From Nitrosovibrio sp. Nv4 (GTDB lineage: Bacteria; Pseudomonadota; Alphaproteobacteria; Acetobacterales; Acetobacteraceae), in NCBI GenBank assembly GCA_943330455.2, contig CALQHT020000004.1, positions 1 through 64,000 on the forward strand: 64,000 nucleotides of DNA, in the 5' to 3' direction. This document shows positions 32,743 through 41,696 of the stretch, one piece after another. The stretch's first letter is position 1, and each line of letters opens with the position of its first letter. The notes under the pieces were generated by a model. That model saw only the letters and a program-made list of their open reading frames with translations. It was not told the DNA's origin and did no database searches. The position numbers and the translations under genes are program-made.

Positions 32743-32852
32743 CGGCGCAGTTTGCGTGGATATCGGCCGGTCGGGAAGGCCCTTACCGACGCTTGATATT
32801 GCCTCCCCTTCGCCACGGCGCTACTCCCCCGGGCGTCGAGGAGTTTGCCCGC

Positions 32853-34082
32853 ATGCGCGTCAAGGATGTGAAGAAAGTGGTTCTCGCCTATTCGGGCGGG
32901 CTGGACACCAGCGTGATCCTGCGTTGGCTGCAAACCACCTACCAGTGTGAGGTCGTGACCTTCACCGCCGATCTCGGCCAGGGCGAGGAGCTTGGGCCGG
33001 CGCGCCAGAAAGCGGAAATGTTCGGCGTGAAGGAGATCTTCGTCGACGATCTGCGCGAGACCTTCGTGAAGGACTTCGTCTTTCCGATGTTCCGCGCCAA
33101 CGCGTTGTATGAGGGCCAGTATCTGCTGGGCACCTCCATCGCGCGCCCGTTGATCGCTCAGCGCCAGATCGAGATCGCCGAGATGGTCGGTGCCGACGCC
33201 GTGGCACATGGTGCGACCGGCAAGGGCAACGACCAGGTGCGGTTCGAGCTGTCCTATTACGCCCTGAAGCCCGACATCAAGATCATCGCGCCCTGGCGGG
33301 AATGGGACCTGACCAGCCGCACGACCTTGATCGAGTTTGCCGAGACGCATCAGATCCCCATCGCCAAGGACAAGCGTGGCGAGGCGCCGTTCAGCGTCGA
33401 TGCCAATCTGTTGCACTCGTCGTCCGAGGGCAAAATTCTGGAAGACCCGGCGGTGGAGGCGGATGAAATCGTCTATCAGCGCACGATCCGGCCGGAAGAT
33501 GCGCCCGACAAGGCAACTGTCATCTCGATGGATTTCGAGCATGGCGACCCGGTGGCGATCGACGGGGTGCGGCTGTCCCCGGCCGCTCTGCTGACCCGGT
33601 TGAACGAGCTGGGCAAGGCAAACGGCATCGGCCGGCTGGATCTGGTGGAGAACCGGTTCGTCGGCATGAAGTCGCGCGGCGTCTATGAAACGCCAGGTGG
33701 CACCATCCTGTTGCTGGCCCATCGGTCGATGGAAAGCATCACCCTGGATCGCGAGGCGGGGCATCTGAAGGACAGCCTGATGCCGCGCTACTCGGAGCTG
33801 ATCTACAACGGATTCTGGTTCAGCCCGGAGCGGCGGATGCTGCAGGCGTTGATCGATGAAAGCCAGAAGAGCGTCAGCGGCCGCGTGCGGTTGAAACTCT
33901 ACAAAGGCAACGTCACCTGCATCGGCCGTGAGTCGCCGCATAGCCTTTATGACACACGGGTCGTGACGTTCGAGGATGACCAGGGTGCCTATGACCAGGT
34001 CGATGCCCAAGGCTTCATCAAGCTGAACGCGCTGCGGCTGCGGCTGGGCGCGATGGTCGGGCGTCGCGGCGGGACGTTGTAG
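32853..34082 (+). CDS. argG: Argininosuccinate synthase
   Basis: [47 protein letters not shown]...[18 protein letters not shown]...; YSGGLDTS P-loop. Confidence 0.97.
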
Positions 34083-34345: not shown

Positions 34346-34846
34346 TCACCCAAGCAACGTCAGCAACCCCTGCAACAACTGCGTCGGCGTCGGCGGACAG
34401 CCGCGGATTACCAAGTCGACCGGCACGACGGCGGACACGCCGCCCACCACGGCATAGCTCCCGGCGAATACGCCCGCATCGGCGCCGCAATCTCCCACGG
34501 CGACCACCCATTTCGGATCGGGCGTGGCCTGCCAGGTTCGTTCCAGCGCTTCCCGCATGTTCTTGGTCACGGGCCCGGTGACCAGCAGCACGTCGGCGTG
34601 CCGGGGCGACGCGACAAAGTGCAGACCGAACCGCTCCAGGTCATGGAACGCGTTGTTCAGGGCATGGATTTCCAATTCGCACCCATTGCAGGACCCGGCA
34701 TCCACCTGGCGGATCGCGAGGCTTCGCCCCAGCCTGCGGCGAGCGGTCGCGTCCAGGGTCGCCGCCAGCTTGGCCAGGTCCGGGTCGATGTCCGGTTTGG
34801 ACTCGGTCAGCGGCCGCCTCAGACCTTCCAGCAGATGTCTCAGCAT
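34346..34846 (-). CDS. hyfI: NuoB/HyfI-like small subunit of a hydrogenase-4-like (Ehr-like) complex
   Basis: RSLAIRQVDAGSCNGCELEIHALNNAFHDLERFGLHFVASPRHADVLLVTGPVTKNMREALERTWQATPDPKWVVAVGDCGADAGVF...VIRGCPPTPTQLLQG; four Cys for a proximal [4Fe-4S] retained. Confidence 0.88.
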   Translation of the reverse strand: MLRHLLEGLRRPLTESKPDIDPDLAKLAATLDATARRRLGRSLAIRQVDAGSCNGCELEIHALNNAFHDLERFGLHFVASPRHADVLLVTGPVTKNMREALERTWQATPDPKWVVAVGDCGADAGVFAGSYAVVGGVSAVVPVDLVIRGCPPTPTQLLQGLLTLLG

Positions 34847-34853
34847 GGGGTGG

Positions 34854-36338
34854 TCACAGGTCGTGTCCCGAGTAGGAGCAGTTGAAGCTCTTGTTGCATA
34901 ACGGAAAATCCGCGACGATGTTGCCCTCGATCACCGCTTCCAGCAGGGGCCACTGGAACCAGGACGCGTCGCGCGCGTGACAGCGTTCGACCACCCCGCC
35001 GACGATGCGCAGCCAGATCAGCAGATCGCCACGGAAGGCCTCGACCAGGGCGATGCCTTCTCCGGCCGCGCCGGTCGGGTCGAACGGGGTCACGGTGTCT
35101 CCGGGTGGCAGACCTTTCAGCAACTGGTCCAGCATCGAGAGGCTTTGCGTGATTTCCTCGATCCGGATCCAGACGCGAGCATTGACGTCGCCATCGCTCC
35201 GCACCGGCACGGTAAACGCCAGCGTGTCATACGGCGCGTATCCCGGTGAACGGCGAGCGTCGAAATCCCGGCCGGATGCGCGACCGACATAGCCGCCGGC
35301 ACCGAACCGGCGCGCGAGATCAGGTTTCAGGTAGCCGGTGGTGACCGTGCGATCCTGCAGGGACGCCATGTTGTCGTACAACGAAACCAGTGGCGGGAAA
35401 CGGGCGCCGATTTCCGCCAACAGGTCCCGGATCAGGCCCACCCGATCCGGGTCCAGGTCTGCGTCCACGCCGCCGGGCACGATCCGATCCATCATCAACC
35501 TGTGGCCGAAACAGACGTTGGCGCAGCGTAAAACCCGCTCCCGCAGCACGGCACAATGCGCCAGCATGATGCTGAAGGAGGCGTCGTTGCAGATCGCCCC
35601 GAAATCCCCGAGATGATTGGCGATGCGTTCCATCTCGGCCATGATCGCGCGCAGCCAGACGGCGCGCGGGGGAACCTGGATGCCCAGCGCCGCCTCGACC
35701 GCTTGGCTGAAGGCGAGGCCATAGGCGACGGTGCTGTCGCCGGATATGCGCCCGGCGATGCGGTGTGCCCGAGCGATCGGGGCGCCGGCGAGCAGCCAAT
35801 CGATCCCCTTGTGGACGTAGCCCAGGCGCTGCTCCAACCGCACCACGGTCTCGCCATCGGCGGTAAAGCGAAAATGCCCGGGCTCGATGATGCCGGCATG
35901 CACCGGGCCGACCGGGATCTGATGCAGTCCCTCACCGTCCACTGGCAGGAATTGGTAGGATGCGGCCGGCGGGGTTTCGCCCTCCCAACGGCCATGATCC
36001 AGCCAGGGTCGCGTGTCGGGCAGGCCGATCGGGTTCAATCCGAACAGATCGCGCATCGCCCGCTCCAGCCGGATCGCGGGAGGATGCAGGCGCCCGATCG
36101 ATGGATACACCAGGTCGGCGCACTCTAGGCTCAATACGGCAATGCAGGGATCGGCCTCGCCCAGCAACGCCATGTGCGCCCGTCCGACTTCACCCCAGAC
36201 GCTCAGGAGCGTCACCGTGCCGGCGGCGAGGGCGTCGATGGCGCGTTCCCAGACGACGATATCGACTTCATGTCGCGGCCATGGCGCGGAACCGAAAACC
36301 GGTCGGCCTTGCTTCAGCAGGTCCTGCAAGCCGGTCAT
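34854..36338 (-). CDS. hyfG: NuoCD/HyfG-like large subunit lacking most [NiFe] cysteine ligands
   Basis: NuoC-like N-terminus (ERAMRDLFGLNPIGLPDTRPWLDHG) then NuoD/HyfG-like LEQRLGYVHKGIDWLLAG...RISGDSTVAYGLAFSQAVEAALGIQVPPRAVWLRAIMAEMERIANHL; ATG overlaps the hyfF stop (ATGA). Confidence 0.88.
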   Translation of the reverse strand: MTGLQDLLKQGRPVFGSAPWPRHEVDIVVWERAIDALAAGTVTLLSVWGEVGRAHMALLGEADPCIAVLSLECADLVYPSIGRLHPPAIRLERAMRDLFGLNPIGLPDTRPWLDHGRWEGETPPAASYQFLPVDGEGLHQIPVGPVHAGIIEPGHFRFTADGETVVRLEQRLGYVHKGIDWLLAGAPIARAHRIAGRISGDSTVAYGLAFSQAVEAALGIQVPPRAVWLRAIMAEMERIANHLGDFGAICNDASFSIMLAHCAVLRERVLRCANVCFGHRLMMDRIVPGGVDADLDPDRVGLIRDLLAEIGARFPPLVSLYDNMASLQDRTVTTGYLKPDLARRFGAGGYVGRASGRDFDARRSPGYAPYDTLAFTVPVRSDGDVNARVWIRIEEITQSLSMLDQLLKGLPPGDTVTPFDPTGAAGEGIALVEAFRGDLLIWLRIVGGVVERCHARDASWFQWPLLEAVIEGNIVADFPLCNKSFNCSYSGHDL

Positions 36339-37789
36339 CCGAGTTGTACCGCGACGTGGTGGAACCACGCCACCAGCGGCGGCGGCAACCAGATACCGGC
36401 GATCAGCACCAACAAGAGATGGGCGAACATCGGCAGGTAGGAGGCTCGCACCGGCCCGACCGGTCCCTTCACCGGGCCGAACGCCAGGTCATTGACCCGC
36501 AGCAGCAAGGCGCCGAAGGCCAGCAACAGGCCGAAGACGAACAGCACGGCCAGCACTGGAACGCGGGCGAAGGTGGTGGACGCCACCAGGAACTCGCTGG
36601 TGAAGACGCCGAAGGGGGGCATCCCGCCGATTGCCGCCACTCCGGCCACCAGAGACCAGCCCAGCACCGGGTGCGAAACGGTCAGGCCACCGATATCGGC
36701 CATGCGCTGGGTTCCCTTGACCTGCACGATATGGCCCACCGCAAAGAAGATCGCCGATTTGGTCAGGCTGTGCATCGCCATGTGCAGCAGGCCGGCGAAA
36801 TTGCCCAACGGCCCCGCCATGCCGAACGAGAACACGATAATCCCCATGTGCTCGATCGACGAATAGGCGAACATGCGTTTGATGTCGCGCCGGCGATACA
36901 GCATGAACGCCGCGAAAATCAGCGACAGCAGCCCCATGCCGATCATCAGTGGCCCGGGTGCCAGAGCGCCAGGATTGGCCGCGATCAGCATCTTGAAGCG
37001 CAGCAGGGCATAGAGCGCGACGTTCAACAGCAAGCCCGACAGCACGGCGGAGATCGGCGTCGGCCCCTCGGAATGTGCGTCGGGCAGCCAGGCATGCAGC
37101 GGTGCCAGCCCGACCTTGGTGCCATAGCCCAGCAGCAGGAAGATGAAGGCGATGTTCAGCAATGATGGATCGAGCGCCGCGGCCCGCGAGACCAGGGTCG
37201 TCCAGACCATGGCATCCATGCCCTCCCCGATGACCGGCAGCGCGGCCAGGTAGACCAGGATGGTGCCGAACAGGGCCAGCGCGATGCCGACACTGCCGAG
37301 GATGAAGTATTTCCAGGCGGCTTCCAGGGCCTCGGCCGTGCGGTAGATCCCGACCATCAGGACCGTGGTCAGGGTTGCCAGTTCGACGGCGACCCACATC
37401 AGGCCGATATTGTTGGCGACCAGCGCCAGACCCATGCCGAACTGCATGATCTGATACATCGCGTGGTAGAATCGCAGATGCCTTTGAGTCAGGCGGCCGA
37501 TTTCCAGTTCGTGCGCGATGTAGCTGGCACTGAAGACGCTGGTGGTGAAGCCCACGAAGGTGTTCAGGATGATGAACACCACGTTCAGATCATCCACCAG
37601 CAGGTATTGCCCCGGTGCCGGTCGCCCCGCTAGCAGCATCAGCGCGCAGAGCAGCGACCCCAGGCTGGCCGCCATGTTCATCCCGGCCGACACCCGATAA
37701 CCGGGCACGAATGCCAGGACGGCGGCCGCGACCAGCGGGATCGACAGCACACCCACCAAAGGGTCGATACCGAGCAGGAACGGCATCAC
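36335..37789 (-). CDS. hyfF: HyfF-like proton-translocating antiporter subunit (NuoL/M/N family)
   Basis: Highly hydrophobic; FVGFTTSVFSASYIAHE...LMWVAVELATLTTVLMV...KVGLAPLHAWLPDAHSEGPTPISAVLSGLLLNVALYALLRF...YSSIEHMGIIVF; Proton_antipo_M hallmarks. Confidence 0.92.
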   Translation of the reverse strand: MMPFLLGIDPLVGVLSIPLVAAAVLAFVPGYRVSAGMNMAASLGSLLCALMLLAGRPAPGQYLLVDDLNVVFIILNTFVGFTTSVFSASYIAHELEIGRLTQRHLRFYHAMYQIMQFGMGLALVANNIGLMWVAVELATLTTVLMVGIYRTAEALEAAWKYFILGSVGIALALFGTILVYLAALPVIGEGMDAMVWTTLVSRAAALDPSLLNIAFIFLLLGYGTKVGLAPLHAWLPDAHSEGPTPISAVLSGLLLNVALYALLRFKMLIAANPGALAPGPLMIGMGLLSLIFAAFMLYRRRDIKRMFAYSSIEHMGIIVFSFGMAGPLGNFAGLLHMAMHSLTKSAIFFAVGHIVQVKGTQRMADIGGLTVSHPVLGWSLVAGVAAIGGMPPFGVFTSEFLVASTTFARVPVLAVLFVFGLLLAFGALLLRVNDLAFGPVKGPVGPVRASYLPMFAHLLLVLIAGIWLPPPLVAWFHHVAVQLG

Positions 37790-38448
37790 CCTTGGCCTCC
37801 GCGGAATTTGTCCAGGGCCCCGACATCGACGGTATCGAAGCGCTCCCGGATGCGGAACAGGAAGATGCCGATGACGATGAACGCGATCAGGATCGAGAAG
37901 GCGATGCTGATCTCAACTACCAGCGGCATGCCGCGCGCGCCGGTGGCGGCCAGATTGATGCCGTTTTCCAGCGACATGAAGCCGACGACCTGGCTGACGG
38001 CGTTGCGGCGGGTGACCATCATCAGAAGGCCGATCAGTACCACGGACAAAGCGAGCGCGATGTCCTCCCGCGCGATCGGGTCGGCCTTGGCGGTGACCGG
38101 CAGCATGACCTCCAGCGACAGGGCCACCAGTGCCATGCCTGCCAGCATCGTCAGGCCGACGCTGACAACGGCCTCGATTTCCCGATGCACGCCCATGCGA
38201 AACACCATGCGGCGCAGCGCCCAGGGGACCAGGATGGCCTTGAAGCCCAATGCGATGGCGGCGGTGACATACAGATGCGGCGAGCCCTGGATGTGTGCCT
38301 GCCACGCGACCGAAAGCGACAGCACCAGCGCATGAAGCGCCAGGACATTCAGCAACGCGTAGAGCCGGACCTGATACAGCATCATGAAACTGACCAGCAC
38401 CAGGGCTCCGGCCAGCATATGGGCGATATCGAAGGATAGCCCGTGCAT
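37786..38448 (-). CDS. hyfE: HyfE-like membrane subunit
   Basis: Multi-TM 220 aa protein with C-terminal VGFMSLENGINLAATGARGMPLVVEISIAFSILIAFIVIGIFLFRIRERFDTVD (NuoK/HyfE-like); ATGA overlap with hyfF. Confidence 0.85.
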   Translation of the reverse strand: MHGLSFDIAHMLAGALVLVSFMMLYQVRLYALLNVLALHALVLSLSVAWQAHIQGSPHLYVTAAIALGFKAILVPWALRRMVFRMGVHREIEAVVSVGLTMLAGMALVALSLEVMLPVTAKADPIAREDIALALSVVLIGLLMMVTRRNAVSQVVGFMSLENGINLAATGARGMPLVVEISIAFSILIAFIVIGIFLFRIRERFDTVDVGALDKFRGGQG

Positions 38449-38451
38449 CTG

Positions 38452-39408
38452 CTACATCCCCCGCGACACGAACAGCAGCAGCACGCCCAGCAACGCCAGC
38501 ATCAGCGCGGCACCCAGGAAATTCGGCACCCGGAACACCCGCATCTTGGCGATCGACATTTCGGACACGCTCAGCAGCACGCCCGCCCCTGTCAGCTTTA
38601 CGAGCCAGAGGCCCGCACCGGCGGCATAATCCAGCGGGGAGCTGGCCGCTCCGGCCAGTCCGAACGGCAGGAACAGGCAGATGATCAGCGACGCATAGGC
38701 CAGCAATTTCAGGGACGCGGCGAGGTCGATCATCGCCAGATGGCGACCGGAATATTCCAACACCATCGCCTCGTGCACCATCGTCAGTTCCAGGTGCGTC
38801 GCGGGATTGTCCACGGGGATGCGGCCGTTTTCGGAGATCGCCACGATGATCAACGCCACCAACGCCAAGGCGAGCGACACCCGCAGACCGACCGCGTCCG
38901 ACTGCATGAACACGGCGATCGTCGACAACTGGGTCGAGCCCGCGATCAGCGCCACCGAAAACACGATCATGACCATCGCCGGTTCCGCCAGGGAGGCGAT
39001 CATGACTTCCCGGGACGCGCCGATCCCGCCGAAGCTGGTGCCGACATCCAGCCCGGCCAGCGCCTGGGCAAAGCGGACACCGCCGAACAGCGCGATGATC
39101 ACCAGCAGATCGCCGGACCAACTGAACAGCAGCCCGGTCGCGAAAGTCGGGATCAGGGACGCGGCGACCCAGGTGATCGCGAACACGACATAGGGAACGC
39201 CGCGGAACAGCCAGGAGGCGTTCTCCGCCATCACGACATCCTTGCCGAACAGGCGGCGGAGGTCCCGGTAGGGCTGCAGCAACGGCGGGCCCTGGCGACG
39301 TTGCAGCCTGGCCTTGACCTTGCGCACCAGGCCGGTCAGCAGCGGCGCCAAGCCCAGCACCAGCGCCATCTGCGCAAATTGGGTTAGCAGCGCGCCCATC
39401 ATGTCCAT
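38452..39408 (-). CDS. hyfC: HyfC/NuoH-like membrane subunit
   Basis: LAPLLTGLVRKVKARLQRRQGPPLLQPYRDLRRLFGKDVVMAENASWLFRGVPYVVFAITWVAASLIPTF...PVDNPATHLELTMVHEAMVLEYSGRHLAMIDLAASLKL; NuoH/HycD family. Confidence 0.9.
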   Translation of the reverse strand: MDMMGALLTQFAQMALVLGLAPLLTGLVRKVKARLQRRQGPPLLQPYRDLRRLFGKDVVMAENASWLFRGVPYVVFAITWVAASLIPTFATGLLFSWSGDLLVIIALFGGVRFAQALAGLDVGTSFGGIGASREVMIASLAEPAMVMIVFSVALIAGSTQLSTIAVFMQSDAVGLRVSLALALVALIIVAISENGRIPVDNPATHLELTMVHEAMVLEYSGRHLAMIDLAASLKLLAYASLIICLFLPFGLAGAASSPLDYAAGAGLWLVKLTGAGVLLSVSEMSIAKMRVFRVPNFLGAALMLALLGVLLLFVSRGM

Positions 39409-39426
39409 GGGGTCAGGGCCGTCATG

Positions 39427-41424
39427 TCATTGCCACAACGTCAGCGACACCAGCAGAATCACCAGGGCCGCGAAGACGAACCCCAGATAGCGCCGGATGG
39501 TCAGGTGCTGCATCAGGTTCAGGACCGTCGCCACGGCCAGAATCAGGCGAGCGATAGGAGCGTAAGCCAGCTCCCATATCGTGTCGTGGCTGGTTTTCGC
39601 GATACTGGCCGCCCTGGTGTCGCCGGGGGAAGGCATGTCCACCTTCTCCCGCGTGCGGAACACAACGGCGCCGTAAACGCGGCGGATGGGCTGGTCGAAA
39701 CTGGCGGCCGTATATTGCGTCGCCGGGTTCGGGTCCGGGAACCCACAGTCCCAGGGTGGCGCTCGCCGCAGGCCGCTCGACGCGAACCGGTGGATGACCG
39801 CGACCGTGAGAACCGCGCTGCCACTGATGAACAGGAAGACCAACAGCCCGTTATAGGAGCTGCGGCTGGCGGTGATCGGCGCGACGGTCAGCCACGCATC
39901 GCTCACTTGTGGGGCGATGCGCGCACCGCTCAGCGCTTGCAGGACCGGCGCCAGGAAGTCGATCACCACGCCCGGCAGGATACCGCCCAGCAGACAGAGG
40001 CCGGCAAAGATCAGCATCGCGGCCTGAGACCAGATGTCCGTCTCCCGTGCCTGTTCGGCCGCCGGACTGCGAGGTCGGCCGAGAAACGCGATGCCGAAGG
40101 CGCGCACGAAGCACGCCGCGGCCAGGGCGGCGGCCAGGGCAAGCAGAGCTCCATCCACGGGCAGCGCCAGTTTGGGACCCCATTGCGGCAACTCCGGCCG
40201 CAGCAGGATGGCCTGGAAGATCAGCCACTCGGAGGCAAAACCGTTCAGCGGCGGCAGGGCCGATATCGCGATGCAGCCAACCAGGACCGCAACGGCCGTG
40301 CGTGGCATGCGGTGGATCAGCCCGCCCAACCGTTCCAGATCGCGATGGCCGGTTGCGTTCAGGACCGCGCCCGCACCAAAGAACAACAGGCTCTTGAACA
40401 CGGTGTGGTTCAGCGCATGGAAGAACGCGCCAGTCAGAGCGAGCGTCACACCGGTGGTGAATGCATTCGCCTTGAATGCCAACGCCAATCCCAGAGCGAC
40501 GAAAACGATGCCGATATTCTCGACGGTCGAGAATGCCAGCAGCCGCTTCATGTCCCGCTCCAGCATCGCGTGCAGAACGCCGAGCACGGCGGTGATGCCG
40601 CCCAGCACCAGCACGATGGTGGCGAACCACCAGGGCGGGGTCGGCAGCAGGTCGAAGACGATGCGCACGAAGCCGTAGATCGCGATCTTCGTCATCACCC
40701 CGCTCATCAGGGCCGAGACATGGCTCGGCGCGGCTGGGTGGGCGAGGGGCAGCCACACATGCAGCGGCACCAGGCCCGCCTTCGCGCCGGTCCCGATCAG
40801 CGCCAGCAGCAGGGCGGCCGAGGCCAGGCCGTTGGACGGGGACACCGCCCGGATCGCGTCGAACGCGTAATTCCCGCTCGGACCGGCCAGCAGACCGAAC
40901 GCCAGCAATAACGTCATGCCGCTGAATGCGGCCATCAGCATGTAGACAAAGGCGGCGTGGGCGTTGCCGTCCTCTCGGTGCTGCGCCATCACCAGCGCCC
41001 AGGAGGAAATCGACATCAACTCCCACGCGAACAGGAAGGTGAAAGCGTCGTCGGCCAGGATGACCAGATTCATGCCGGCCAGGAACACCGGATAGAACGG
41101 CAGCACGCGGGCCGGTTCTTCTTCATGCCGGCCGTAGCCGATGGCGAACAGGCTGGCCCCGGCGCCGCCCAGGCCGGTCAGGACCAGGAAAAAGGATGCC
41201 AGCGCATCGAGGCGCAGATGCGTTCCGCTGCCGGGGAGGCCGAGCGGCAGGGTGAGTCGCTGGATTGGGCCGGCTATGGAGGTCAGGCCCGTGCCGAGGA
41301 TGACCAGGCAGACGATCAGGCAACCACCATAGGTCAGGACCCGCCCGATTGGCATCCGTGCCGTAACCGCCGCGATCATGCCCAGAAGTAGCAGGCAGAG
41401 AATGGCGATCAGCACGGTCTCCAT
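39427..41424 (-). CDS. hyfB: HyfB-like proton-translocating subunit (NuoL/M family)
   Basis: DDAFTFLFAWELMSISSWALVMAQH...GTGAKAGLVPLHVWLPLAHPAAPSHVSALMSGVMTKIAIYGFVRI...AFSTVENIGIVFVALGLAL...HALNHTVFKSLLFFGAGAV. Confidence 0.92.
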   Translation of the reverse strand: METVLIAILCLLLLGMIAAVTARMPIGRVLTYGGCLIVCLVILGTGLTSIAGPIQRLTLPLGLPGSGTHLRLDALASFFLVLTGLGGAGASLFAIGYGRHEEEPARVLPFYPVFLAGMNLVILADDAFTFLFAWELMSISSWALVMAQHREDGNAHAAFVYMLMAAFSGMTLLLAFGLLAGPSGNYAFDAIRAVSPSNGLASAALLLALIGTGAKAGLVPLHVWLPLAHPAAPSHVSALMSGVMTKIAIYGFVRIVFDLLPTPPWWFATIVLVLGGITAVLGVLHAMLERDMKRLLAFSTVENIGIVFVALGLALAFKANAFTTGVTLALTGAFFHALNHTVFKSLLFFGAGAVLNATGHRDLERLGGLIHRMPRTAVAVLVGCIAISALPPLNGFASEWLIFQAILLRPELPQWGPKLALPVDGALLALAAALAAACFVRAFGIAFLGRPRSPAAEQARETDIWSQAAMLIFAGLCLLGGILPGVVIDFLAPVLQALSGARIAPQVSDAWLTVAPITASRSSYNGLLVFLFISGSAVLTVAVIHRFASSGLRRAPPWDCGFPDPNPATQYTAASFDQPIRRVYGAVVFRTREKVDMPSPGDTRAASIAKTSHDTIWELAYAPIARLILAVATVLNLMQHLTIRRYLGFVFAALVILLVSLTLWQ

Positions 41425-41438
41425 GACGCCTCGCCGCC

Positions 41439-41696
41439 CTAGGGCGTTTCGGGCGCGACGAACCGGACACCGCGGCCGCCGCGGGGGCTGGCCGCGCCGT
41501 CGTGGATCAGCTCAATGCCTGAGGCATGCAACGCGGCCACCAGTTTCATCAACGAGTCGACATTGCCCCGCACAACCCCGTCACTGGCTTCCATCCGTTG
41601 CACCGTCGGCAGCGACAGCCCAGAAAGTTCGGCCAGGCGTCTCTGGTCGATCCCCAGCAGGGCGCGCGCCGCTCGCATTTGGCCGGCGGTTATCAC
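41439..41696 (-). CDS. Small XRE-type helix-turn-helix regulator
   Basis: MITAGQMRAARALLGIDQRRLAELSGLSLPTVQRMEASDGVVRGNVDSLMKLVAALHASGIELI; HTH_3 pattern; 14 bp upstream of hyfB on the same strand. Confidence 0.8.
   Translation of the reverse strand: MITAGQMRAARALLGIDQRRLAELSGLSLPTVQRMEASDGVVRGNVDSLMKLVAALHASGIELIHDGAASPRGGRGVRFVAPETP

Follow-up and report, generated by a model that had tools for sequence, protein, structure and literature searches.

A predicted nickel-free, six-subunit relative of hydrogenase-4 and complex I: sequence support for an operon of the Ehr class

Comparative sequence analysis supports the assignment of the hyf-like operon found in the window (the whole stretch of 64,000 nucleotides analysed here) to the known Ehr class, as a nickel-free, six-subunit relative of hydrogenase-4 and complex I. 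The class can be called known since it has been described under the name Ehr in several bacteria, each time with no function assigned: in Nitrospira (PMC10284858; see also PMC5596200), in Sulfobacillus (PMC4378227) and in the M. tuberculosis complex (Rv0081–Rv0087; PMC6728331). An earlier reading made from the sequence alone (hereafter the sequence-only reading) had proposed a NiFe-free complex of Ehr type, in agreement with the data presented below, and had regarded it as a candidate for an under-described system. The adjective is fair, but the idea of a new system is not warranted, the class being already published.

The operon lies on the minus strand, from 41424 down to 34346, with all open reading frames intact. 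Adjacent hyf-like genes either overlap by 4 bases, as in the ATGA junction between hyfG and hyfF, or are separated by gaps of 3–18 bases, which bears out the description of six co-directional, tightly packed genes for HyfB, HyfC, HyfE, HyfF, HyfG and HyfI homologues. A small XRE-type HTH_3 gene located directly upstream of hyfB had been overlooked. At several loci of Rhizobium, Bradyrhizobium and Methylovirgula an annotated HTH regulator occupies the same position, and when the genes around the operon were clustered, 12 of 63 loci proved to have an HTH gene (cluster c5). The features of the unit are the following:

41439–41696, minus strand: small regulator of XRE/HTH_3 type, with which the unit begins (Pfam HTH_3 over the cut-off)
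39427–41424, minus strand: HyfB-like antiporter-type subunit (NCBIfam hydrogenase 4 subunit B, 840 bits, above the cut-off)
38452–39408, minus strand: HyfC-like (NuoH) membrane anchor (NuoH models, below the cut-off)
37786–38448, minus strand: HyfE-like membrane subunit (NCBIfam hydrogenase 4 membrane subunit, E=5e-24, below the cut-off)
36335–37789, minus strand: HyfF-like antiporter-type subunit (NCBIfam hydrogenase 4 subunit F, 843 bits, above the cut-off)
34854–36338, minus strand: HyfG-like large subunit, a NuoCD fusion without [NiFe] ligands (match to HycE, PDB 7z0s_E, E=3e-55)
35733–35750, minus strand: R-I-S-G-D-S of HyfG, replacing R-x-C-G-x-C (alignment to 7z0s_E)
34857–34886, minus strand: C-terminal F-N-C-S-Y-S-G-H-D-L of HyfG, replacing L-D-P-C-x-x-C-x-x-R (alignment to 7z0s_E)
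34346–34846, minus strand: HyfI-like (NuoB) small subunit (NuoB family, E=1.5e-37)

The large subunit also matches NuoD models, the matches of the subunits other than HyfB and HyfF being mostly below the cut-off. An ordinary neighbour, argG (argininosuccinate synthase; 32793–34082, plus strand), adjoins the end of the operon.

The lost [NiFe] site of HyfG (numbered here from the GTG at 36368, to which the reading frame stays open) is best seen in the alignment to HycE of the E. coli formate hydrogenlyase (7z0s), a comparison that the sequence-only reading had proposed: RISGDS stands opposite RVCGIC, and FNCSYSG opposite LDPCYSC. All four ligand cysteines are replaced (Ser209, Ser212, Ser498 and Gly501), confirming the announced loss of both cysteines of the N-terminal motif and that of the C-terminal DPCxxC motif. 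The cysteine thought to survive from the latter motif does not belong to it: Cys497 aligns with the proline of DPCxxC, which is not a ligand position, and this position is variable among relatives (Leu in 53 of 159, Gly in 7 of 159). An alignment of 159 large subunits, in which some genomes are represented more than once, shows that the replacement motif, R-x-S-G-D-S-T ... K-S-F-N-x-S-Y-S-G-x-D-L, is a recurrent one: Ser209 is present in 146, Asp211 in 158, Ser212 in 131, Asn496 in 157, Ser498 in 142, Tyr499 in 157, Gly501 in 157 and Asp503 in all 159. Since different classes and phyla have the same replacements, the loss of the ligands is not a matter of chance or of a sequencing slip; the prospect, raised by the sequence-only reading, that a corrected sequence might restore the CxxC motifs is thereby removed. 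As judged from these alignments, the HyfG sequence is a fixed new motif, neither decay nor sequencing error. Hydrogenase large subunits are cut at their C-terminus during maturation; HyfG ends at this cleavage position, so that no extension is left to process. The AlphaFold model of HyfG (pLDDT 83.8, residues 131–187 being poorly predicted) most resembles HycE in the PDB (7z0s_E, TM 0.85), followed by NuoCD.

In the phylogenetic trees, also among the checks initially proposed, HyfG falls in a clade that lacks the NiFe ligands, outside both the group 4 [NiFe] hydrogenases and NuoD. In the first tree, the NiFe-less set has an SH-aLRT value of 97, and [NiFe] group 4 and NuoD reach 100 each; the one published Ehr sequence aligned and placed by name is that of C. 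metallidurans (L166). A genome scan yielded named loci spanning the Alpha-, Beta- and Gammaproteobacteria and Nitrospirota, and plasmid records add relatives in Rhodococcus, Meiothermus and C. metallidurans. The HyfG proteins of a member of the family (L012) and of the Methylovirgula plasmid pHY1 (L078) are very close sisters, on branches shorter than 0.1, suggestive of horizontal transfer. One locus, L177 (6101–7714, G113:C107), encodes a HyfG with all four cysteines (RICGVC and ELCYSCTDR), and the ferredoxin motif is absent from its called genes. It is predicted to be a NiFe-competent relative, from a source bin that is 88% complete with 5% contamination and whose origin is unsure. In a second tree, which included more paralogues, L177 takes a basal position in the NiFe-less set, suggesting that this lineage once held NiFe.

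The remaining subunits retain their Fe–S and proton-channel residues. The four Fe–S cysteines of HyfI, pointed out from the start, are present here and in at least 98% of relatives (C53, C120 and C150 each in 156 of 158 sequences, C56 in 157 of 158). Their CxxC...C...C arrangement is that of hydrogenases, not the tandem CC of NuoB, and they probably ligate one [4Fe-4S] cluster. The antiporter-like subunits of an Ehr complex, with their proton-channel residues, are represented by HyfB and HyfF, in which the Glu and Lys residues are kept as in their E. coli counterparts: in HyfB, all 76 sequences have Glu135, Lys215 and Lys344, and 71 of them have Lys246; in HyfF, Glu136 is invariant, Lys225 and Lys344 are each found in 144 of 145 sequences, and N256 occupies the TM8 position, like in E. 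coli HyfF. E161 and E179 are conserved in HyfE, and the acidic loop residues of HyfC are invariant. The HyfC loop NPATHLELTMVHEA contains a three-residue insert, with H205 and H212 each present in 85 of 86 relatives; neither E. coli HyfC, HycD and NuoH nor Azospirillum HyfC has such an insert. That these histidines compensate for the lost cysteines was considered and rejected, for L177 carries the insert (THLELTMLH) yet still has its CxxC ligands.

As in other Ehr systems, group 4/complex I-like core subunits are encoded together. The operon shares with the published Ehr complexes hyf-type membrane and Fe–S subunits and a large subunit that lacks the NiFe ligands or was not classed as a hydrogenase, and it differs from them in its host lineage and in the XRE-type regulator upstream. 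The same six genes, hyfBCEFGI, occur in Cupriavidus (PMC2864759) and At. ferrooxidans (PMC7735108). Hydrogenase-4 and formate hydrogenlyase (FHL) complexes (E. coli Hyf and Hyc, Azospirillum argentinense p2) have in common with it the HyfB, C, E, F, G and I homologues and a CxxC-type HyfI, but the present operon lacks the NiFe ligands, HyfA, HyfD, HyfH, HyfJ, the protease, formate dehydrogenase (FDH) and hyp genes. The NuoB, NuoCD, NuoH, NuoK and NuoL/M-type core and the NuoCD fold recall complex I; unlike complex I, the operon has neither NuoI nor an NADH module, its HyfI carries CxxC instead of the NuoB tandem cysteines, and the tyrosine of the NuoD RLDY motif (which we take to be Tyr87 in T. 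thermophilus) is a glycine in HyfG. Replacement of complex I by the operon was rejected, as NuoG scores over the cut-off in the same genome.

Could the operon nevertheless encode a genuine [NiFe] hydrogenase with unusual ligands? The fold of HyfG, nearest to that of HycE, is in its favor, but no member of the clade has regained the four ligand cysteines as a set, the C-terminal extension is absent, and neither hypA nor hypD, the two maturation genes covered by the search, was found in the genome, which is 98.6% complete. The sequence-only reading had asked for this search and named placement inside a [NiFe] clade with hyp genes and hydrogenase activity as fatal to the Ehr assignment; clade and genome both point the other way, and of the marks of a group 4 hydrogenase neither the RxCGxC/DPCxxC ligands nor hypA and hypD are present. 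The genome holds no other [NiFe] large subunit, the NiFe Pfam family retrieving solely the HyfG of the operon and a second NiFe-less copy. In a survey of 150 genomes of the family (taken as Acetobacteraceae), 86 contain a close HyfG (match below E=1e-70), of which 65 lack hypD above the cut-off. As a positive control, family member G029 displays both RVCGIC and DPCYSC, and its hypD and FDH genes lie at most about 15 kb away. A hydrogenase with unusual ligands is thus strongly disfavoured, its probability being close to negligible.

The second copy (L028, 4331–10688, G000:C133) is a divergent B-C-E-F-G set whose HyfG is 38% identical to that of the operon; no HyfI was found beside it on its contig, its HyfF looks split, and its proton-channel residues have been lost, the HyfB TM8 stretch GVMTK reading GAMVP. 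Within the same family, a paralogue clade (L030, L033, L042, L043, L178 and L180–L196) mostly keeps the HyfI cysteines, all four of which are lost in L043, and has lost the proton-channel Glu and Lys residues of HyfB and HyfF where these can be aligned. Such a degenerate copy in the same genome might suggest that the operon is itself a non-functional remnant; we hold this to be very improbable, given six intact genes and pocket, Fe–S and channel residues conserved across classes.

No ferredoxin-like subunit, such as NuoI or the HyfA and HyfH of hydrogenase-4 and FHL complexes, is encoded in the operon. CxxCxxCxxxC was sought in the open stretches of 92 loci, each 12 kb long or more, over a range reaching 11 kb ahead of HyfG and 5 kb beyond it: 75 loci had none, and most remaining matches fall outside the operon or in other frames; the true hydrogenase (FHL/Hyf) control loci (L162, L163, L169 and L044) have three or four each. 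Gene clustering in 63 loci revealed no conserved redox gene beside the operon: the neighbour clusters consist only of regulators and of spermidine-synthase-like, metG, methyltransferase and transporter genes, and a conserved partner dehydrogenase at this place was discarded on these grounds.

With moderate confidence, we favor a minimal, Ehr-type redox-driven proton pump with a single Fe–S cluster, a soluble donor and an acceptor that would most simply be a quinone. The donor, a soluble carrier such as a ferredoxin or flavodoxin, or else a dehydrogenase whose genes lie elsewhere, would dock on HyfI at the site that HycF/HyfH occupies in true hydrogenases; electrons would cross the single [4Fe-4S] cluster to the acceptor, most simply a quinone, in a re-shaped HyfG/HyfC cavity, and their flow would drive proton movement via HyfC, HyfE, HyfF and HyfB or, in reverse, be driven by protons. 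The quinone step is the weak one, because the RLDY tyrosine is a glycine in HyfG; His186, being common to hydrogenases, does not discriminate for a quinone site. The literature yielded no usable mutant phenotype for such complexes.

The archaeal MBS relative turns over sulfur compounds, and it is possible, if on the unlikely side, that the acceptor or donor of this Ehr-type complex is a small molecule turned over in the old NiFe pocket rather than a quinone. The missing quinone tyrosine and the near invariance of H186, D211, N251, H252, D370, R372, N496 and Y499 in the pocket region fit this idea, but no neighbouring gene hints at a substrate. The bolder proposal, that the old pocket now forms a new catalytic site, different from both the NiFe and the canonical quinone site, which would couple an unrecognised reaction to proton movement through a single Fe–S cluster, is speculative and to our mind unlikely. 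Alternatively, the operon might provide the membrane arm of a formate or CO dehydrogenase encoded elsewhere. FDH-Ehr and CODH-Ehr chains have been proposed for other bacteria (PMC6349859), an operon of this kind adjoins CODH in Ca. N. nitrosa (PMC5596200) and a Geobacter Ehr is more abundant on formate (PMC7894505). The genome studied here does encode FDH, and FDH accompanies a close HyfG in 57 of 86 family genomes, versus 22 of the 64 others, these being raw counts uncorrected for kinship and genome size. However, 29 of the 86 carriers have no FDH match over the cut-off, and neither FDH nor CODH is a conserved neighbour in the clade of the operon, which makes such an arm quite improbable here.

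Ehr complexes are widespread relatives of complex I that have no assigned reaction. In the clade described here the six genes form an autonomous and strongly conserved unit, which also occurs in Rhizobium, Azospirillum and Cupriavidus, hosts that are genetically tractable, so that the question of the Ehr reaction can be tested there. If the proposal of a new catalytic site in the old pocket is true, this site would sit in a complex widely carried by proteobacteria.
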